Shown: positions 39,782 through 45,460 of the stretch, piece after piece
Layout of the letters: the number at the start of each line of letters is the position of its first letter
How positions within the stretch are numbered: position 1 is the first letter of the stretch
Assembly: GCF_030413175.1 (NCBI RefSeq)
Contig: NZ_CP129212.1
Location: forward strand, 6,781,001-6,845,000
Reading direction: 5' to 3'
DNA: 64,000 bases
From: Bradyrhizobium roseum
Lineage (GTDB): Bacteria > Pseudomonadota > Alphaproteobacteria > Rhizobiales > Xanthobacteraceae
Notes under the pieces: generated by a model
What the model was told of the DNA's origin: nothing
Database searches by the model: none
What the model saw: only the letters and a program-made list of their open reading frames with translations
Position numbers and translations under genes: made by a program

Positions 39782-41014
39782 TCAGATCACGAAGAAGCCA
39801 TGCGTGCCATCGCGGCGGAGTTGTTCGACGAGGCCGTATTCCCAGTCGAGATAGGCCTGCATCGCGCTTTCCTTGACGTCGGTGCCCTCATAGGGACGGC
39901 GATAGCGGTGCGATGGATCGGGCTTTGGGATCACAAGCGGCGGACCGATCTCGAGCTTGCCGTCATAGCGGCCTTCGAGCACATAGACCTCCCATCCCAT
40001 CTGTGCGAGCCACGACGCGGTCATGTCAGCGCGTACGCGCAGATTGTCCGTGAGTATGATTCGCGCGCCGCGCACCGGGGCCGCCATGTCGATCTCCTGC
40101 ACCAGTTGCCCGCCGGGATAATGGCGGAAGCCGGCGAGATGACCGGCGGTGAATTCCTCCTCCGAACGCACGTCGAAGAGATAAAGCGTGCGGCCGGTCT
40201 GCGCCCGCAACCCCGCCATCTCGGCCGCGCCGATGTGCCGTACGCCGGCGCGATAGGCGACATCGCGCGCATTGGCTTCGCCCCCTGCGATGGCACCGAT
40301 CTCGCCGCGCTTGCTGGAGCCGTGATCGAGCGTCTGCTTGGCCAGCGTCCAGCCGATGGTGCCGTTGCGCAGCGCCCGCACCCGGTTGGTGACGCCGGCA
40401 TTGATCAGCGACTGGGTGCCGATGATCGATCGGGTGCGGCCGGCGCAGTTGACGATGATGGTGGTGCCGGGATCCGGCGCAGCGCGGCCCGCGCGCAGCA
40501 CCAGTTCCGCGCCCGGCACGCTGATCGAGCCTGGAATGTTCATGGTCGCATATTCGTCGAACCGGCGGACGTCGAGGATCTGAATGTTCGCGCCCTCGGC
40601 GATCAGCGCTCCGACTTCCTCGGCTGCCAGAGACGGCGTGTGGCGGCGGTGCTCCACCAGTTCGCCAAAGGCTTTTGCATATGAATTGACGTCCTGGAAC
40701 AGTTCATAGCCCGCCTGTTTCCAGCCCTGCAGCCCGCCGTCAAGCTGGCGGACGTTGGTGTAACCCGAGGCTTTCAAGCGATCCGCCGCCACGGCCACCA
40801 GACCTTCGCCGTCATCATAAAGAACGATCGGCGCGTCCTTGCGCGGCAGCCGCGCTTCGGCTTCCAGCCCGATCCTGTCGGCCGCCATGTTGGCGGCGAA
40901 CAGCGGATGGCCGGTGGCAAACGCGGCCTCGTGCCTGACATCGAGCAGCGCGATTTCCTCGCGCAGCAAAAGCGCCGTGCGGATTTCGGACGGGGTGACG
41001 GACGGCAAGGTCAT
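39782..41014 (-). CDS. Triple-rhodanese sulfurtransferase
   Basis: A 410-aa protein of three rhodanese folds. Domain 1 (about 1-105) has Asp67/Asp68 (LYDDGEG) and domain 3 (about 255-360) has Asp323 (LTDNLRV) at the active loop, while domain 2 (about 125-235) keeps Cys190 in NCAGRTRS. Only the middle domain can carry persulfide. It ends 3 bp from the convergent glycosylase gene and is divergent from the LysR gene with 166 bp between them, so that regulator is a candidate to control it. Role in sulfur transfer or thiosulfate use is possible but not shown. Confidence 0.9.
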   Translation of the reverse strand: MTLPSVTPSEIRTALLLREEIALLDVRHEAAFATGHPLFAANMAADRIGLEAEARLPRKDAPIVLYDDGEGLVAVAADRLKASGYTNVRQLDGGLQGWKQAGYELFQDVNSYAKAFGELVEHRRHTPSLAAEEVGALIAEGANIQILDVRRFDEYATMNIPGSISVPGAELVLRAGRAAPDPGTTIIVNCAGRTRSIIGTQSLINAGVTNRVRALRNGTIGWTLAKQTLDHGSSKRGEIGAIAGGEANARDVAYRAGVRHIGAAEMAGLRAQTGRTLYLFDVRSEEEFTAGHLAGFRHYPGGQLVQEIDMAAPVRGARIILTDNLRVRADMTASWLAQMGWEVYVLEGRYDGKLEIGPPLVIPKPDPSHRYRRPYEGTDVKESAMQAYLDWEYGLVEQLRRDGTHGFFVI

Positions 41015-42230: not shown

Positions 42231-42833
42231 TCAATTAAACAGCGATTCGTCCCCGAGCACCGATTGCCGGAACCGCGACGTCAGGATGACGCCGTCTGCC
42301 GGCGGCATCACGAACGGGAGCGCTTCGGGATTGATCTTGATCTGGGCGAACGCCGTTCCGCGCCCCTCATGGGCGAGTTCGCGCAACTCGGTGACTTCGG
42401 CCATGGTGCGGACGATGCGCGAGGTGCGGATGCCGCAGGCGGTGGCGATCGCCGCAAGGTCGACGCCGGAAGCCGTCGGCGTCTTCTGCATGCCAGTCTC
42501 GCCGAAGCGCTCGTTGTCGAGCACGGCGATGGTGAGGTTCTTCGGCGCCTCCACCGCGATCGGTGCCAGCGAACCGACATTCATCAGCAGCTCGCCGTCG
42601 CCAGTGATGACCAGCACCTTGCGCTTCGGCTGCGCCAGCGCCAGGCCGAGCCCGATCATCGACGCGCCGCCCATCGCGCCCCATAGCGGGAAATTGTTGG
42701 CATGATCGCCGGCGGCCGAGACGTCCCAGTTCGGCGCGCCGAGGCCGGCAATGACGAGCAAGTCGGCACGGTCGCGAACCAGTTCGTTGACGACGTCGCG
42801 GCGGTTCAGCAGTGCGTTCGGGTTGGCGGTCAT
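42231..42833 (-). CDS. TPP-dependent decarboxylase, C-terminal (beta) subunit
   Basis: A 200-aa thiamine-diphosphate-binding subunit. The TPP motif begins at Gly78-Asp-Gly80 (GDGELLMN) and closes at Asn107 (VLDNERFGETG). Size and split layout match the beta subunit of sulfopyruvate/phosphonopyruvate decarboxylases (ComE type). ATG 42833 overlaps the stop of the alpha-subunit gene (ATGA), so the two are translated together and form one active site at their interface. The 2-oxo acid is not identifiable. Confidence 0.85.
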   Translation of the reverse strand: MTANPNALLNRRDVVNELVRDRADLLVIAGLGAPNWDVSAAGDHANNFPLWGAMGGASMIGLGLALAQPKRKVLVITGDGELLMNVGSLAPIAVEAPKNLTIAVLDNERFGETGMQKTPTASGVDLAAIATACGIRTSRIVRTMAEVTELRELAHEGRGTAFAQIKINPEALPFVMPPADGVILTSRFRQSVLGDESLFN

Positions 42834-43396
42834 TTGCGGGCAAGCTCCTTGAAGTTCTTGGCACCGAGGACGCGCTGTCCGAGCAGGACCGCGACCGGCT
42901 TCCAGGTGTTGAAGGCGAGGTGCGCCGCGCCCTGCACGGTGGAGGCGACCAAATCAGGATCGTCCACCTTGTTCACGATCACGCCCATGGCTTCCAGCGA
43001 GGGGCGCGTGCCCTGCCCCATCGGGATCTGCCATGGATTGAACTCGCCCCAATCGCCGCGCATGGTGACGATCATCAGCAGCGGCATGTGGCAGATCACC
43101 GGTAGCGACAGCATGTTGATGCAGTTGCCGACGCCGCTCGACTGCAGCAGCAGCACGCCGCGCTCGCCGCCGAGCCACGCGCCCGCCAGCATCGCCACCC
43201 CCTCTTCTTCCGTCGTCAGGGTAACGACGCGCGTCTCAGGGTCGGCCTCGAAGGAACGGATCAGGCGGCTGTGACCGGCGTCCGGCACCATGGCGACCTG
43301 GCGAATGCCGGCGTCCTTGAGCACGCGATAGATTTCATCCGGCCATGTCGGCAGCGGGGCCTGCGCCGCGCTCCCCGCTTTTGCTGCTTCCGCCAT
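42830..43396 (-). CDS. TPP-dependent decarboxylase, N-terminal (alpha) subunit
   Basis: A 188-aa pyrimidine-binding subunit with the activating glutamate region TTEEEGVAMLAGAWLGGERG and the substrate-side segment LLQSSGVGNCINMLSLPVICHMP. It corresponds to ComD of sulfopyruvate decarboxylase. GGAG precedes ATG 43396 (MAEAAKAGSAAQ); the frame is open 183 nt further but without a good start. It is first in a two-gene unit. Confidence 0.85.
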   Translation of the reverse strand: MAEAAKAGSAAQAPLPTWPDEIYRVLKDAGIRQVAMVPDAGHSRLIRSFEADPETRVVTLTTEEEGVAMLAGAWLGGERGVLLLQSSGVGNCINMLSLPVICHMPLLMIVTMRGDWGEFNPWQIPMGQGTRPSLEAMGVIVNKVDDPDLVASTVQGAAHLAFNTWKPVAVLLGQRVLGAKNFKELARK

Positions 43397-43717
43397 CGGG
43401 CTCCGTTTCCTCTGCGATTCCAGGTTCGATTGACGCGAACCATAGATCGCCGCAGGGGGTTGAGGAATTTGAATGTGAGCATGGCTTGTATCGCGAAATT
43501 GAAAGGCTTGGTGCACCACGCTCCTCCATTTCGTTGAGGTGCGGGCGCACGCTTGCGCCGCGTGCGTTGCCGCATTCATTGAGGACGACGCGAAGCAGTG
43601 ACAGCTGGTTGGATGGCCGACGCAACCAGAAAAGATTCTGACAACCTCAACGCGAATTGTTCTTGATTTGTTCCATTTTGTCAGGCAGGCTGAACAAGCT
43701 CATTCAGGAGTTTTTCG
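43397..43717. other. Divergent spacer before the ClpS-AAA fusion gene
   Basis: About 320 bp between divergent genes. The part before the ATPase gene (43640-43700) is more AT-rich (TTGTTCTTGATTTGTTCCATTT) and likely holds its promoter. No EcfG or sigma-54 match was found. Confidence 0.4.
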
Positions 43718-45460
43718 ATGGACCGCGTTCAACCTGGTTACGTTCAGCTCGTTCTTCATGACAACGAGGACACCCCGCAGGATTATGTCATCGGCCTGCT
43801 CCGCTCGGTATTCGGTCAATCGCCGACCGACGCCTTCGAGGTGATGGTCACCATCGAAAAGCGCGGCAAAGCAGTTTGCGGCACGTATCCGCGCGCCGTC
43901 GCTGAGGCGCTGTTGCAGGCGGCATTGGAACGAATCAGGGCATCGGGCCATCAGCTGGCGATGACCGCCCAAGCCGGCGATGACCTCGGCAATGATCGCT
44001 GCAAGCTGTGCGGCAATTTCTCCGAACATCCGCTTCGTTTGGTACGCAAGACGGCGCTGGTTTGCGACGACTGTATGCTGGCGACCGCGGAAGAACTCGG
44101 CGTCATCAAGGAAACAAGGCGATTCGACTTTGCTTGTACCGCCATTGAGTGGCATTTCGCCGGCTTCTCCCCGGATGATTTGATTTCAGCGTCGCGTCAG
44201 TTTCCCGGACACATGCGCGCCGACGTTCAGACTGCGGTCGACCAATTGTTCTCTGGTCAGCGCGGCAGGTTTTTCGGCATTCAGGAGTATCACCGCTACG
44301 ATACCCTCACCTTTGCCGCGCTGACGAGGCCCGGACACAGCGCGCATGCCATCGCGCCGGCGCAATACCATGATGTGGAGGTGGGTGACGCCGAGCCGGT
44401 CAAATGCCTCGACAATGGACTTTGGCTTTCTGACGCCGGGGACTTGCGATATGCCGTCGTGCTCTCCGCTCATCGCGAACATGGAGAGGAAGCGGGTGTT
44501 CGGATCGAGATCGCGGTGCCCTCCGGAGAGACAGGCGCAGAGTTCGTGAGACTCTGCTTCGCGGCCATCGAGGACGCGGTCAACGCCGCGAACTGCTACC
44601 GGGGCAAGGTCCTGTCATTCGATGGCGGCGCCAACTATCGTGGCAGATCGCGCGGCCTGATGGTGCACAGGCTGCCGCCCGTCGAACGCGCCAACGTGAT
44701 CCTGCCCGAGACGGCACTGAAACTGCTCGACCACAACATTCTCAACTTTGTGGAGCGCCGCGCACAGCTGCGCCTGCTCGGTCAGTCGACCCGCAAGGGA
44801 ATCCTGCTCTACGGACCGCCCGGCACCGGAAAGACACACACCATTCGCTACCTCGCCAGCAGCTTGCCCGGCCACACGACATTGATCATCACGGCTGCGC
44901 AGGTCGCCCTGCTCGGAGCCTATATCAACCTTGCTCGCTTGTTGCAGCCGGCCATGGTGGTGATCGAGGATGTCGACCTCATCGCACGGGATCGCGAGAG
45001 GATGGGACCGTGCGAAGAATCCATGCTCAACAAGCTTCTCAACGAGATGGACGGGTTGAAGGAAGATGCCGACATCCTGTTTGTCCTCACGACCAACCGG
45101 CCCGAACAACTCGAAGGCGCACTGGCTAACCGGCCCGGCCGGATCGATCAGGCGATCGAGATTCCGTTGCCCGATGATGCCGGCCGACGCAAGCTGGTTC
45201 AGCTCTACGGCAAGGGTCTGCGGCTCGACGAAGCCCTGATTGACGAAGCCGTCCGGCGAACCCGGGGCGTCAGCGCCGCCTTCATCAAGGAATTGATGCG
45301 GCGTACCGCGCAGGCCGCCATCGGCCGGGATGGCGGCACGGCCATCACGTCAGCCGATATCGGTGAAGCGCTCGATGACATGCTGTTCGCGAGCGGCAAG
45401 CTCAATGTCAAATTGCTCGGAGGGGCACTCGAAATGGCGCAGGCGGCAGCCGCGGTGTGA
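43718..45460 (+). CDS. ClpS-zinc finger-AAA ATPase fusion protein
   Basis: A 580-aa protein joining four parts. Residues 8-84 form a ClpS fold (LVLHDNEDTPQDYVIGLL, then GKAVCGTYPRAVAE), the adaptor that delivers N-degron substrates to ClpAP. Residues 95-119 form a C4 zinc finger (Cys95, Cys98, Cys116, Cys119) like the ClpX zinc-binding domain. Residues 130-330 are a domain found before some Cdc48-like ATPases. The AAA module has Walker A GPPGTGKT at 366-373, Walker B Glu417-Asp418 (VVIEDVD) and arginine fingers Arg472/Arg475 (NRPGRID). AGGAG precedes ATG 43718. No protease domain or ClpP gene accompanies it, so it is probably an unfoldase or disaggregase. Confidence 0.85.
   Translation: MDRVQPGYVQLVLHDNEDTPQDYVIGLLRSVFGQSPTDAFEVMVTIEKRGKAVCGTYPRAVAEALLQAALERIRASGHQLAMTAQAGDDLGNDRCKLCGNFSEHPLRLVRKTALVCDDCMLATAEELGVIKETRRFDFACTAIEWHFAGFSPDDLISASRQFPGHMRADVQTAVDQLFSGQRGRFFGIQEYHRYDTLTFAALTRPGHSAHAIAPAQYHDVEVGDAEPVKCLDNGLWLSDAGDLRYAVVLSAHREHGEEAGVRIEIAVPSGETGAEFVRLCFAAIEDAVNAANCYRGKVLSFDGGANYRGRSRGLMVHRLPPVERANVILPETALKLLDHNILNFVERRAQLRLLGQSTRKGILLYGPPGTGKTHTIRYLASSLPGHTTLIITAAQVALLGAYINLARLLQPAMVVIEDVDLIARDRERMGPCEESMLNKLLNEMDGLKEDADILFVLTTNRPEQLEGALANRPGRIDQAIEIPLPDDAGRRKLVQLYGKGLRLDEALIDEAVRRTRGVSAAFIKELMRRTAQAAIGRDGGTAITSADIGEALDDMLFASGKLNVKLLGGALEMAQAAAAV

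Follow-up and report, generated by a model that had tools for sequence, protein, structure and literature searches.

The window analyzed here is a 64,000-nucleotide stretch of the genome of Bradyrhizobium roseum (contig NZ_CP129212.1, positions 6,781,001 to 6,845,000), a legume-associated soil bacterium. An open reading frame (ORF) at window positions 43718-45460 on the forward strand encodes a 580-amino acid protein in which a ClpS domain, a C4 zinc finger, a middle domain and an AAA ATPase module follow one another. Elsewhere, ClpS acts as a free helper of ClpAP or forms a domain of eukaryotic N-end-rule ligases. The features of the locus are listed below; pLDDT is the predicted local distance difference test score of the structure model, and dN/dS is the ratio of nonsynonymous to synonymous substitution rates.

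43706..43710, +, AGGAG, putative ribosome-binding site read from the sequence, ending 7 bases upstream of the ATG
43718..45460, +, ORF of 580 amino acids (ORF list, Pfam, model with mean pLDDT of 86.9)
43739..43969, +, ClpS domain, residues 8-84 (PF02617, E 4.7e-14; PDB ClpS chains; median dN/dS 0.23)
43991..44095, +, ClpX-type C4 zinc finger, residues 92-126, Cys95/98/116/119 (alignment with sister proteins P0227 and P0225)
44120..44707, +, middle domain, residues 135-330 (models; no Pfam or PDB sequence match; weak fold matches)
44708..45415, +, AAA ATPase module, residues 331-566
44813..44836, +, Walker A, GPPGTGKT, residues 366-373 (identical in 296/330 family rows)
44876..44968, +, segment from beta2 to Walker B, residues 387-417, short (model lacks a canonical pore loop 1)
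44954..44971, +, Walker B, MVVIED, residues 413-418 (acidic pair reads ED)
45095..45097, +, sensor 1, Asn460 (Asn in 321/330 rows)
45131..45142, +, arginine fingers, Arg472 and Arg475 (Arg in 324/330 rows each)

A four-domain protein without a protease part

The first methionine of the ORF is invariant across 26 aligned sequences, the window's among them. The AlphaFold model of the full chain has a predicted template modeling score of 0.74, and confidence is high in ClpS, in the middle domain and across most of the AAA part, and lower in the finger (blocks of 64-73). The PF02617 (ClpS) profile matched residues 9-83 with 52.4 bits (cut-off 23), and ten distinct ClpS sequences from the PDB aligned within residues 6-85 at E values of 1e-8 to 1.2e-4. 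An earlier note on this DNA had read a ClpS fold at residues 8-84 from the sequence alone, to be refuted if residues 1-85 failed to match ClpS or if homologues lacked them. This did not happen, since both profile and PDB sequences identify the N-terminal 85 residues as ClpS and the region persists in homologues.

The same note had described a C4 zinc finger. The four cysteines (C95-x2-C98-x17-C116-x2-C119) line up with cysteines of P0227 and P0225. For these two sisters, PF06689, the ClpX C4 finger, gives 34.3 and 30.0 bits, respectively, against a cut-off of 27; the window protein itself receives no PF06689 score in the Pfam scan, and two other sisters of the four scanned, P0229 and P0235, fall below the cut-off. 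All four cysteines are kept in 187 of 208 ClpS-bearing rows.

As previously proposed, Pfam and NCBIfam scans found no protease domain in the chain; the best stretch of an FtsH match (residues 406-556) lies inside the AAA part. An HbYX C-terminus was present in none of the 120 members examined. No clear membrane helix was found in the window protein, the best 19-residue hydropathy being 1.67, again inside the AAA part. Median dN/dS was 0.23 for ClpS, 0.26 for the finger, 0.16 for the middle domain and 0.12 for AAA, all below 1, and no pair exceeded 1 (513 pairs with moderate dS, of which 375 were usable for ClpS and 326 for the finger). Judging from these alignments, the ClpS-AAA fusion is real and conserved, and all four of its domains are under purifying selection. 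The architecture is not described in the literature searched, which left out most subscription papers; nor did the earlier note know of a characterized protein of this kind.

Docking face and ligand pocket of the fused ClpS

ClpS positions are numbered below as in E. coli ClpS, via a gapless alignment. The fused set comprised 208 ClpS domains (209 rows of the ClpS region minus P0200, whose N-terminus is DUF5069-like). The control consisted of 30 free ClpS proteins of relatives, fetched from 50 matches in 26 genomes; the 20 unfetched matches were 12 further free ClpS of a lower-scoring type and 8 of the fused type.

Lys84 was present in 30/30 free ClpS proteins and in 0/208 fused domains, while Glu or Asp at position 79 was found in 30/30 and 22/208, respectively. 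The window protein carries Ala at position 79 and Leu at position 84. In an extract of PMC12493166, Glu79 and Lys84 are placed at the ClpA contact. By sequence, then, the fused ClpS is devoid of ClpA-docking residues, and a machine that works independently of ClpAP is highly probable.

The ligand pocket differs as well. At positions 34, 66 and 40, where a classical reader has Asn34, His66 and the gatekeeper Met40, the window protein has Asp, Glu and Gln. His66, found in all 30 free ClpS proteins, remains in 2/208 fused domains, with Glu or Asp there in 165; position 34, Asn throughout the free set, is Asn in 81 and Asp in 110 fused domains. Position 33, part of the pocket list of Caulobacter ClpS in the extract of PMC12493166 (mapped here via an offset), is His in 183/208 fused and 0/30 free domains, the latter carrying Leu, Val or Ile in 30/30. 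Other residues of the ligand site are retained in the fused set, namely Asp35 (194/208), Thr38 (199/208), Leu99 (187/208) and, mostly, Val43; the window protein departs at position 35, where it has Asn.

In 45 non-redundant fused ClpS domains, mean entropy was 1.57 bits in the pocket vs. 1.79 bits elsewhere. Gatekeeper position 40 was the most variable of all (rank 75 of 75), with positions 62 and 66 at ranks 62 and 63, and the nif-linked copies described below have Leu or other non-acidic residues at position 66, among the rows listed. These three observations speak against a single conserved specificity. The pocket of the fused ClpS is, on this comparison, altered and variable, and with His66 so rare and the gatekeeper so variable, reading of classical N-degrons, to which the earlier note had pointed, should not be assumed. 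It follows that the domain resembles free ClpS in profile, in PDB sequence match and in its kept ligand-site residues, and differs from it in being tethered to its own ATPase, in having lost Lys84, Glu79 and His66 in nearly all cases and in its variable gatekeeper.

A partial parallel is offered by UBR1, whose N-domain, in a homology model presented in part of PMC8346999, keeps the pocket residues save for an Asp at the place of His66. UBR1/UBR2 thus also have a ClpS-like domain inside a larger machine with an acidic residue at this place, a likeness taken from published description, not from sequence comparison; UBR1 is a ubiquitin ligase, whereas the fusion is an AAA ATPase.

The variability of positions 40, 62 and 66 could also be expected if ClpS and the finger were modules of assembly or autoregulation that, e.g., keep the ring inactive or join rings, and not client readers at all. 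The finger of ClpX dimerizes, and by parsimony the finger changes state five times inside the ClpS-bearing clade (the ClpS-less L009 and P0224 being scored as finger-less), both of which would suit such a role. The retention of Asp35, Thr38 and Leu99, the newly frequent His33 and the ClpS median dN/dS of 0.23 argue in the opposite direction, making this explanation unlikely. We consider it likely that ClpS acts as a client reader.

The AAA module and the proposed mode of action

PF00004 (AAA) matched residues 362-484 above the cut-off with an E value of 4e-20. Walker A, Walker B, sensor 1 and both arginine fingers are present, the acidic pair of Walker B being in the order ED and not DE, and by these residues the ATP site is intact. 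The Walker A motif at residues 366-373 and the arginine fingers at 472/475, both named in the earlier note, are kept family-wide. The middle domain (residues 135-330) had no match in Pfam and PDB sequence searches, and comparison of predicted models gave only weak fold matches.

By both sequence and fold, the AAA part is closest to Cdc48/p97, Afg2 and proteasomal ATPases, with which it shares both arginine fingers; it differs from them in having one AAA domain, a short pore-loop stretch and other N-terminal modules. The segment from beta2 to Walker B is 31 residues long in 324/330 family rows. Between Walker A and Walker B, the chain has 8-9 residues fewer than the aligned Cdc48 domains, the missing residues falling at the pore loop in two of four alignments and just before beta2 in the other two. 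In the AlphaFold model, a single unbroken helix, residues 393-408, occupies the place where threading AAA proteins have pore loop 1. The AAA domain of the model appears to have no canonical pore loop 1, and a shorter working loop may still be formed.

Fold comparison of the model leans weakly toward YjoB/Bcs1, in which a domain likewise precedes a single AAA domain. Walker B of Bcs1 is also in ED order, and YjoB is a case of non-threading remodeling, like Bcs1. The fusion is unlike Bcs1 in that its Pfam matches do not include the Bcs1 N-terminal family, in that it has no clear membrane helix and in its added ClpS and finger. Bcs1 is described as lacking a canonical pore loop in an extract of PMC11143374, a further point of likeness to the model.

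An unfoldase with a built-in recognition unit was the reading of the earlier note. The recognition unit follows naturally from the domain order, while the term unfoldase is weakened by the helix at the pore-loop-1 stretch and by the shortened segment kept family-wide. A threading unfoldase, whose ClpS would capture N-degron proteins and whose ring would unfold them, alone or for a soluble protease, agrees with the nearest relatives of the AAA part, with Tyr402 (Tyr in 312/330 rows) and with the finger, which is of the type found in the unfoldase ClpX. ClpX resembles the fusion in carrying such a finger (seen here in the sister proteins) on an AAA motor; the fusion differs in its Cdc48-like AAA domain and its extra ClpS and middle domains, and it is not known to partner with ClpP. 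A model without the pore-loop hairpin, the short segment, the complete absence of HbYX among the 120 members, and the loss of His66 together with a variable gatekeeper all speak against threading unfolding coupled to N-degron reading, which we consider rather improbable.

A chaperone-like ATPase, independent of ClpAP and with its own client reader, is the most likely function. More specifically, we assign a probability of roughly 0.45 to an ATP-driven remodeler with these properties, as opposed to a threading unfoldase that feeds a protease. The soluble AAA ATPase would form a ring, and the N-terminal ClpS, joined by the ClpX-type finger in most members seen, would pick up specific clients. 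ClpS would probably read an exposed N-terminus, with a specificity that is unlike Leu/Phe/Tyr/Trp and depends on the lineage. Neither ClpA nor an attached protease would take part when captured clients are passed on to the motor of the same protein, and folded or assembling clients would be remodeled without threading, as in Bcs1, instead of being unfolded for degradation. For the non-threading mechanism we see somewhat better than even chances; that there is no dedicated protease partner is fairly probable, the neighboring genes having been compared by clustering.

If ClpS has indeed been wired to a different motor, with its docking residues lost and its pocket diversified, then reading of protein ends can serve remodeling and not destruction. 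The family would also be a clean test system, combining a single polypeptide, naturally occurring forms that have or lack ClpS and the finger, and near relatives in nitrogen-fixation clusters.

Spread, origin and gene surroundings

A search with residues 1-340 retrieved 893 proteins at E ≤0.001, and among the matches listed, PF02617 was present in 117/120; the fusion therefore recurs. Scanning named genomes yielded 167 relatives; the best 80 loci, which were retained, are mainly from Bradyrhizobium and Mesorhizobium, with few other Hyphomicrobiales and some odd labels. One contig labeled Frankia sp. RB7 (L036) has flanking gene families in common with Bradyrhizobium loci, and its label looks wrong. 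Within Bradyrhizobium, 117 of 242 genomes contain a relative at E ≤1e-60, shortened and broken copies counted. Copies split into two or three mostly adjacent pieces, probably decaying genes, were seen in Bradyrhizobium genomes G633, G704, G836, G850 and G764. Out of 297 genomes of the order, 12 had a match at E 1e-30, five of them aligning from residue ≤9, and in a class-wide sample of 337 genomes E 1e-60 was reached by the window's own genome alone. None of 72,556 plasmid records had a single place covering 80% of the window protein.

A 458-amino acid Mesorhizobium AAA protein without ClpS has the same middle and AAA domains. A search with this protein retrieved 5658 proteins, ClpS-bearing ones included, and 109/120 among the matches listed had no PF02617, short pieces counted. 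Compared with the window protein, ClpS-less rows had a median identity of 0.32 in the middle domain (111 rows) and 0.54 in AAA (118 rows). In a tree of 86 core sequences, ClpS-bearing forms fell into one clade of 58 (FastTree support 0.947; ultrafast bootstrap 94, the usual threshold being 95). This clade includes two ClpS-less members, L009, whose match contains a stop, and P0224; the remaining ClpS-less homologues are mostly an outgroup. The fusion of ClpS apparently arose once, on an AAA family otherwise without ClpS. Because the finger changes state repeatedly, because ClpS-less members exist and because P0200 has a different N-terminal domain (DUF5069-like, slightly under the cut-off), the core of middle and AAA domains seems to accept exchangeable N-terminal modules.

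The patchy presence in the genus (117/242) would also be in line with an IetA-related conflict or defense ATPase in which ClpS would be a sensor, and IetA was the top PADLOC match (E 2.2e-19, 68.1 bits, residues 320-538). That match, however, mainly covers the generic AAA part, where the CDC48 model scores higher (82.3 bits). Among the clustered neighbors, the commonest family occurred at no more than 19/92 loci (neighbors not checked for an IetS-like protease), and relatives are located in nif clusters. A defense role is, therefore, very improbable.

Two nifH genes are listed for the window's genome, and the distance from the window copy to the nearer one is 414 kb. Finger-less ClpS-AAA paralogues, all on the reverse strand, are found in the nif region of Bradyrhizobium after nifK, nifE and nifN (L144, 7481-9211), between nifE and nifS (L145, 6395-8185) and 17.8 kb from nifH (L143, 6478-8217). 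A Rieske-domain gene is located ca. 1 kb from the paralogue in L143 and L144. The three copies group with L010, L060, L089, L090 and L095 with a bootstrap of 100. In six of seven second-copy loci (L010, L090, L091, L092, L094 and L095), a TGT-N10-ACA element precedes a GG-N10-GC element by 90-91 bp; the same pair occurs in L143 (90 bp apart) and L144 (88 bp apart) and was not found at L089 or L145. The chance rate of single elements of such quality is 32 in 115,716 positions, and the loci with the pair are close relatives.

All 25 genomes with a second-type copy have nifH, vs. 147/242 genus-wide (raw counts, kinship ignored). The group of 25 was set by hand (match start at residue 95-139, 58-66% identity) and leaves out G819, G666, G708, G782, G855 and G857 (start 106-135, 68-71% identity), in three of which no nifH match as good as in the other genomes is present; with all six added, nifH is present in 28/31. 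Sequence was inspected for five of the 25 copies (G171, G850, G672, G788 and G035), G035 lying outside the nif-linked branch. The second-type copy and nifH share a contig in 9/25 genomes, at a distance of up to 32 kb in four cases and of 0.26-6 Mb in five.

A match was present in 642 plasmid records, and nine ClpS-less plasmid relatives were viewed. In four of these, on rhizobial plasmids, nif or fix genes are found at a distance of no more than 6 kb:

L146, 11983-13350
L110, 5956-7363
L107, 6046-7422
L112, 6004-7371

At L110, the copy is located between nifK and nifE and spans two frames. At L148, fixLJ lies at ca. 9 kb, and hemN is also present. No nif or fix genes were seen at L108, L109, L111 and L147 within the 6-12 kb viewed; hemN is found at L108 and L109 and is likewise absent from view at L111 and L147. 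A strong link to nif genes is thus limited to part of the relatives.

One may go further and propose an N-recognin of bacteria that works without ClpAP and without any protease. Its ClpS pocket, adapted to different N-termini, would bring folded clients to a non-threading ring of the Bcs1/YjoB kind, in which they would be matured or disassembled. Since a Rieske-domain gene lies close to two copies in or near nif clusters, the clients of the nif-linked branch would be iron-sulfur proteins of nitrogen fixation. Taken as a whole, this extended proposal is doubtful.

A ClpX-type zinc finger is also carried by another protein of the window's genome (G000:C1:6610666-6610776, L097; open frame of 249 amino acids). 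In the window, two adjacent genes at 42231-43579 (reverse strand), divergent from the ClpS-AAA gene, each encode one part, N- or C-terminal, of a thiamine-pyrophosphate enzyme (PF02776 and PF02775), and the protein encoded at 39782-41014, also on the reverse strand, matches the rhodanese domain (PF00581) in three stretches.
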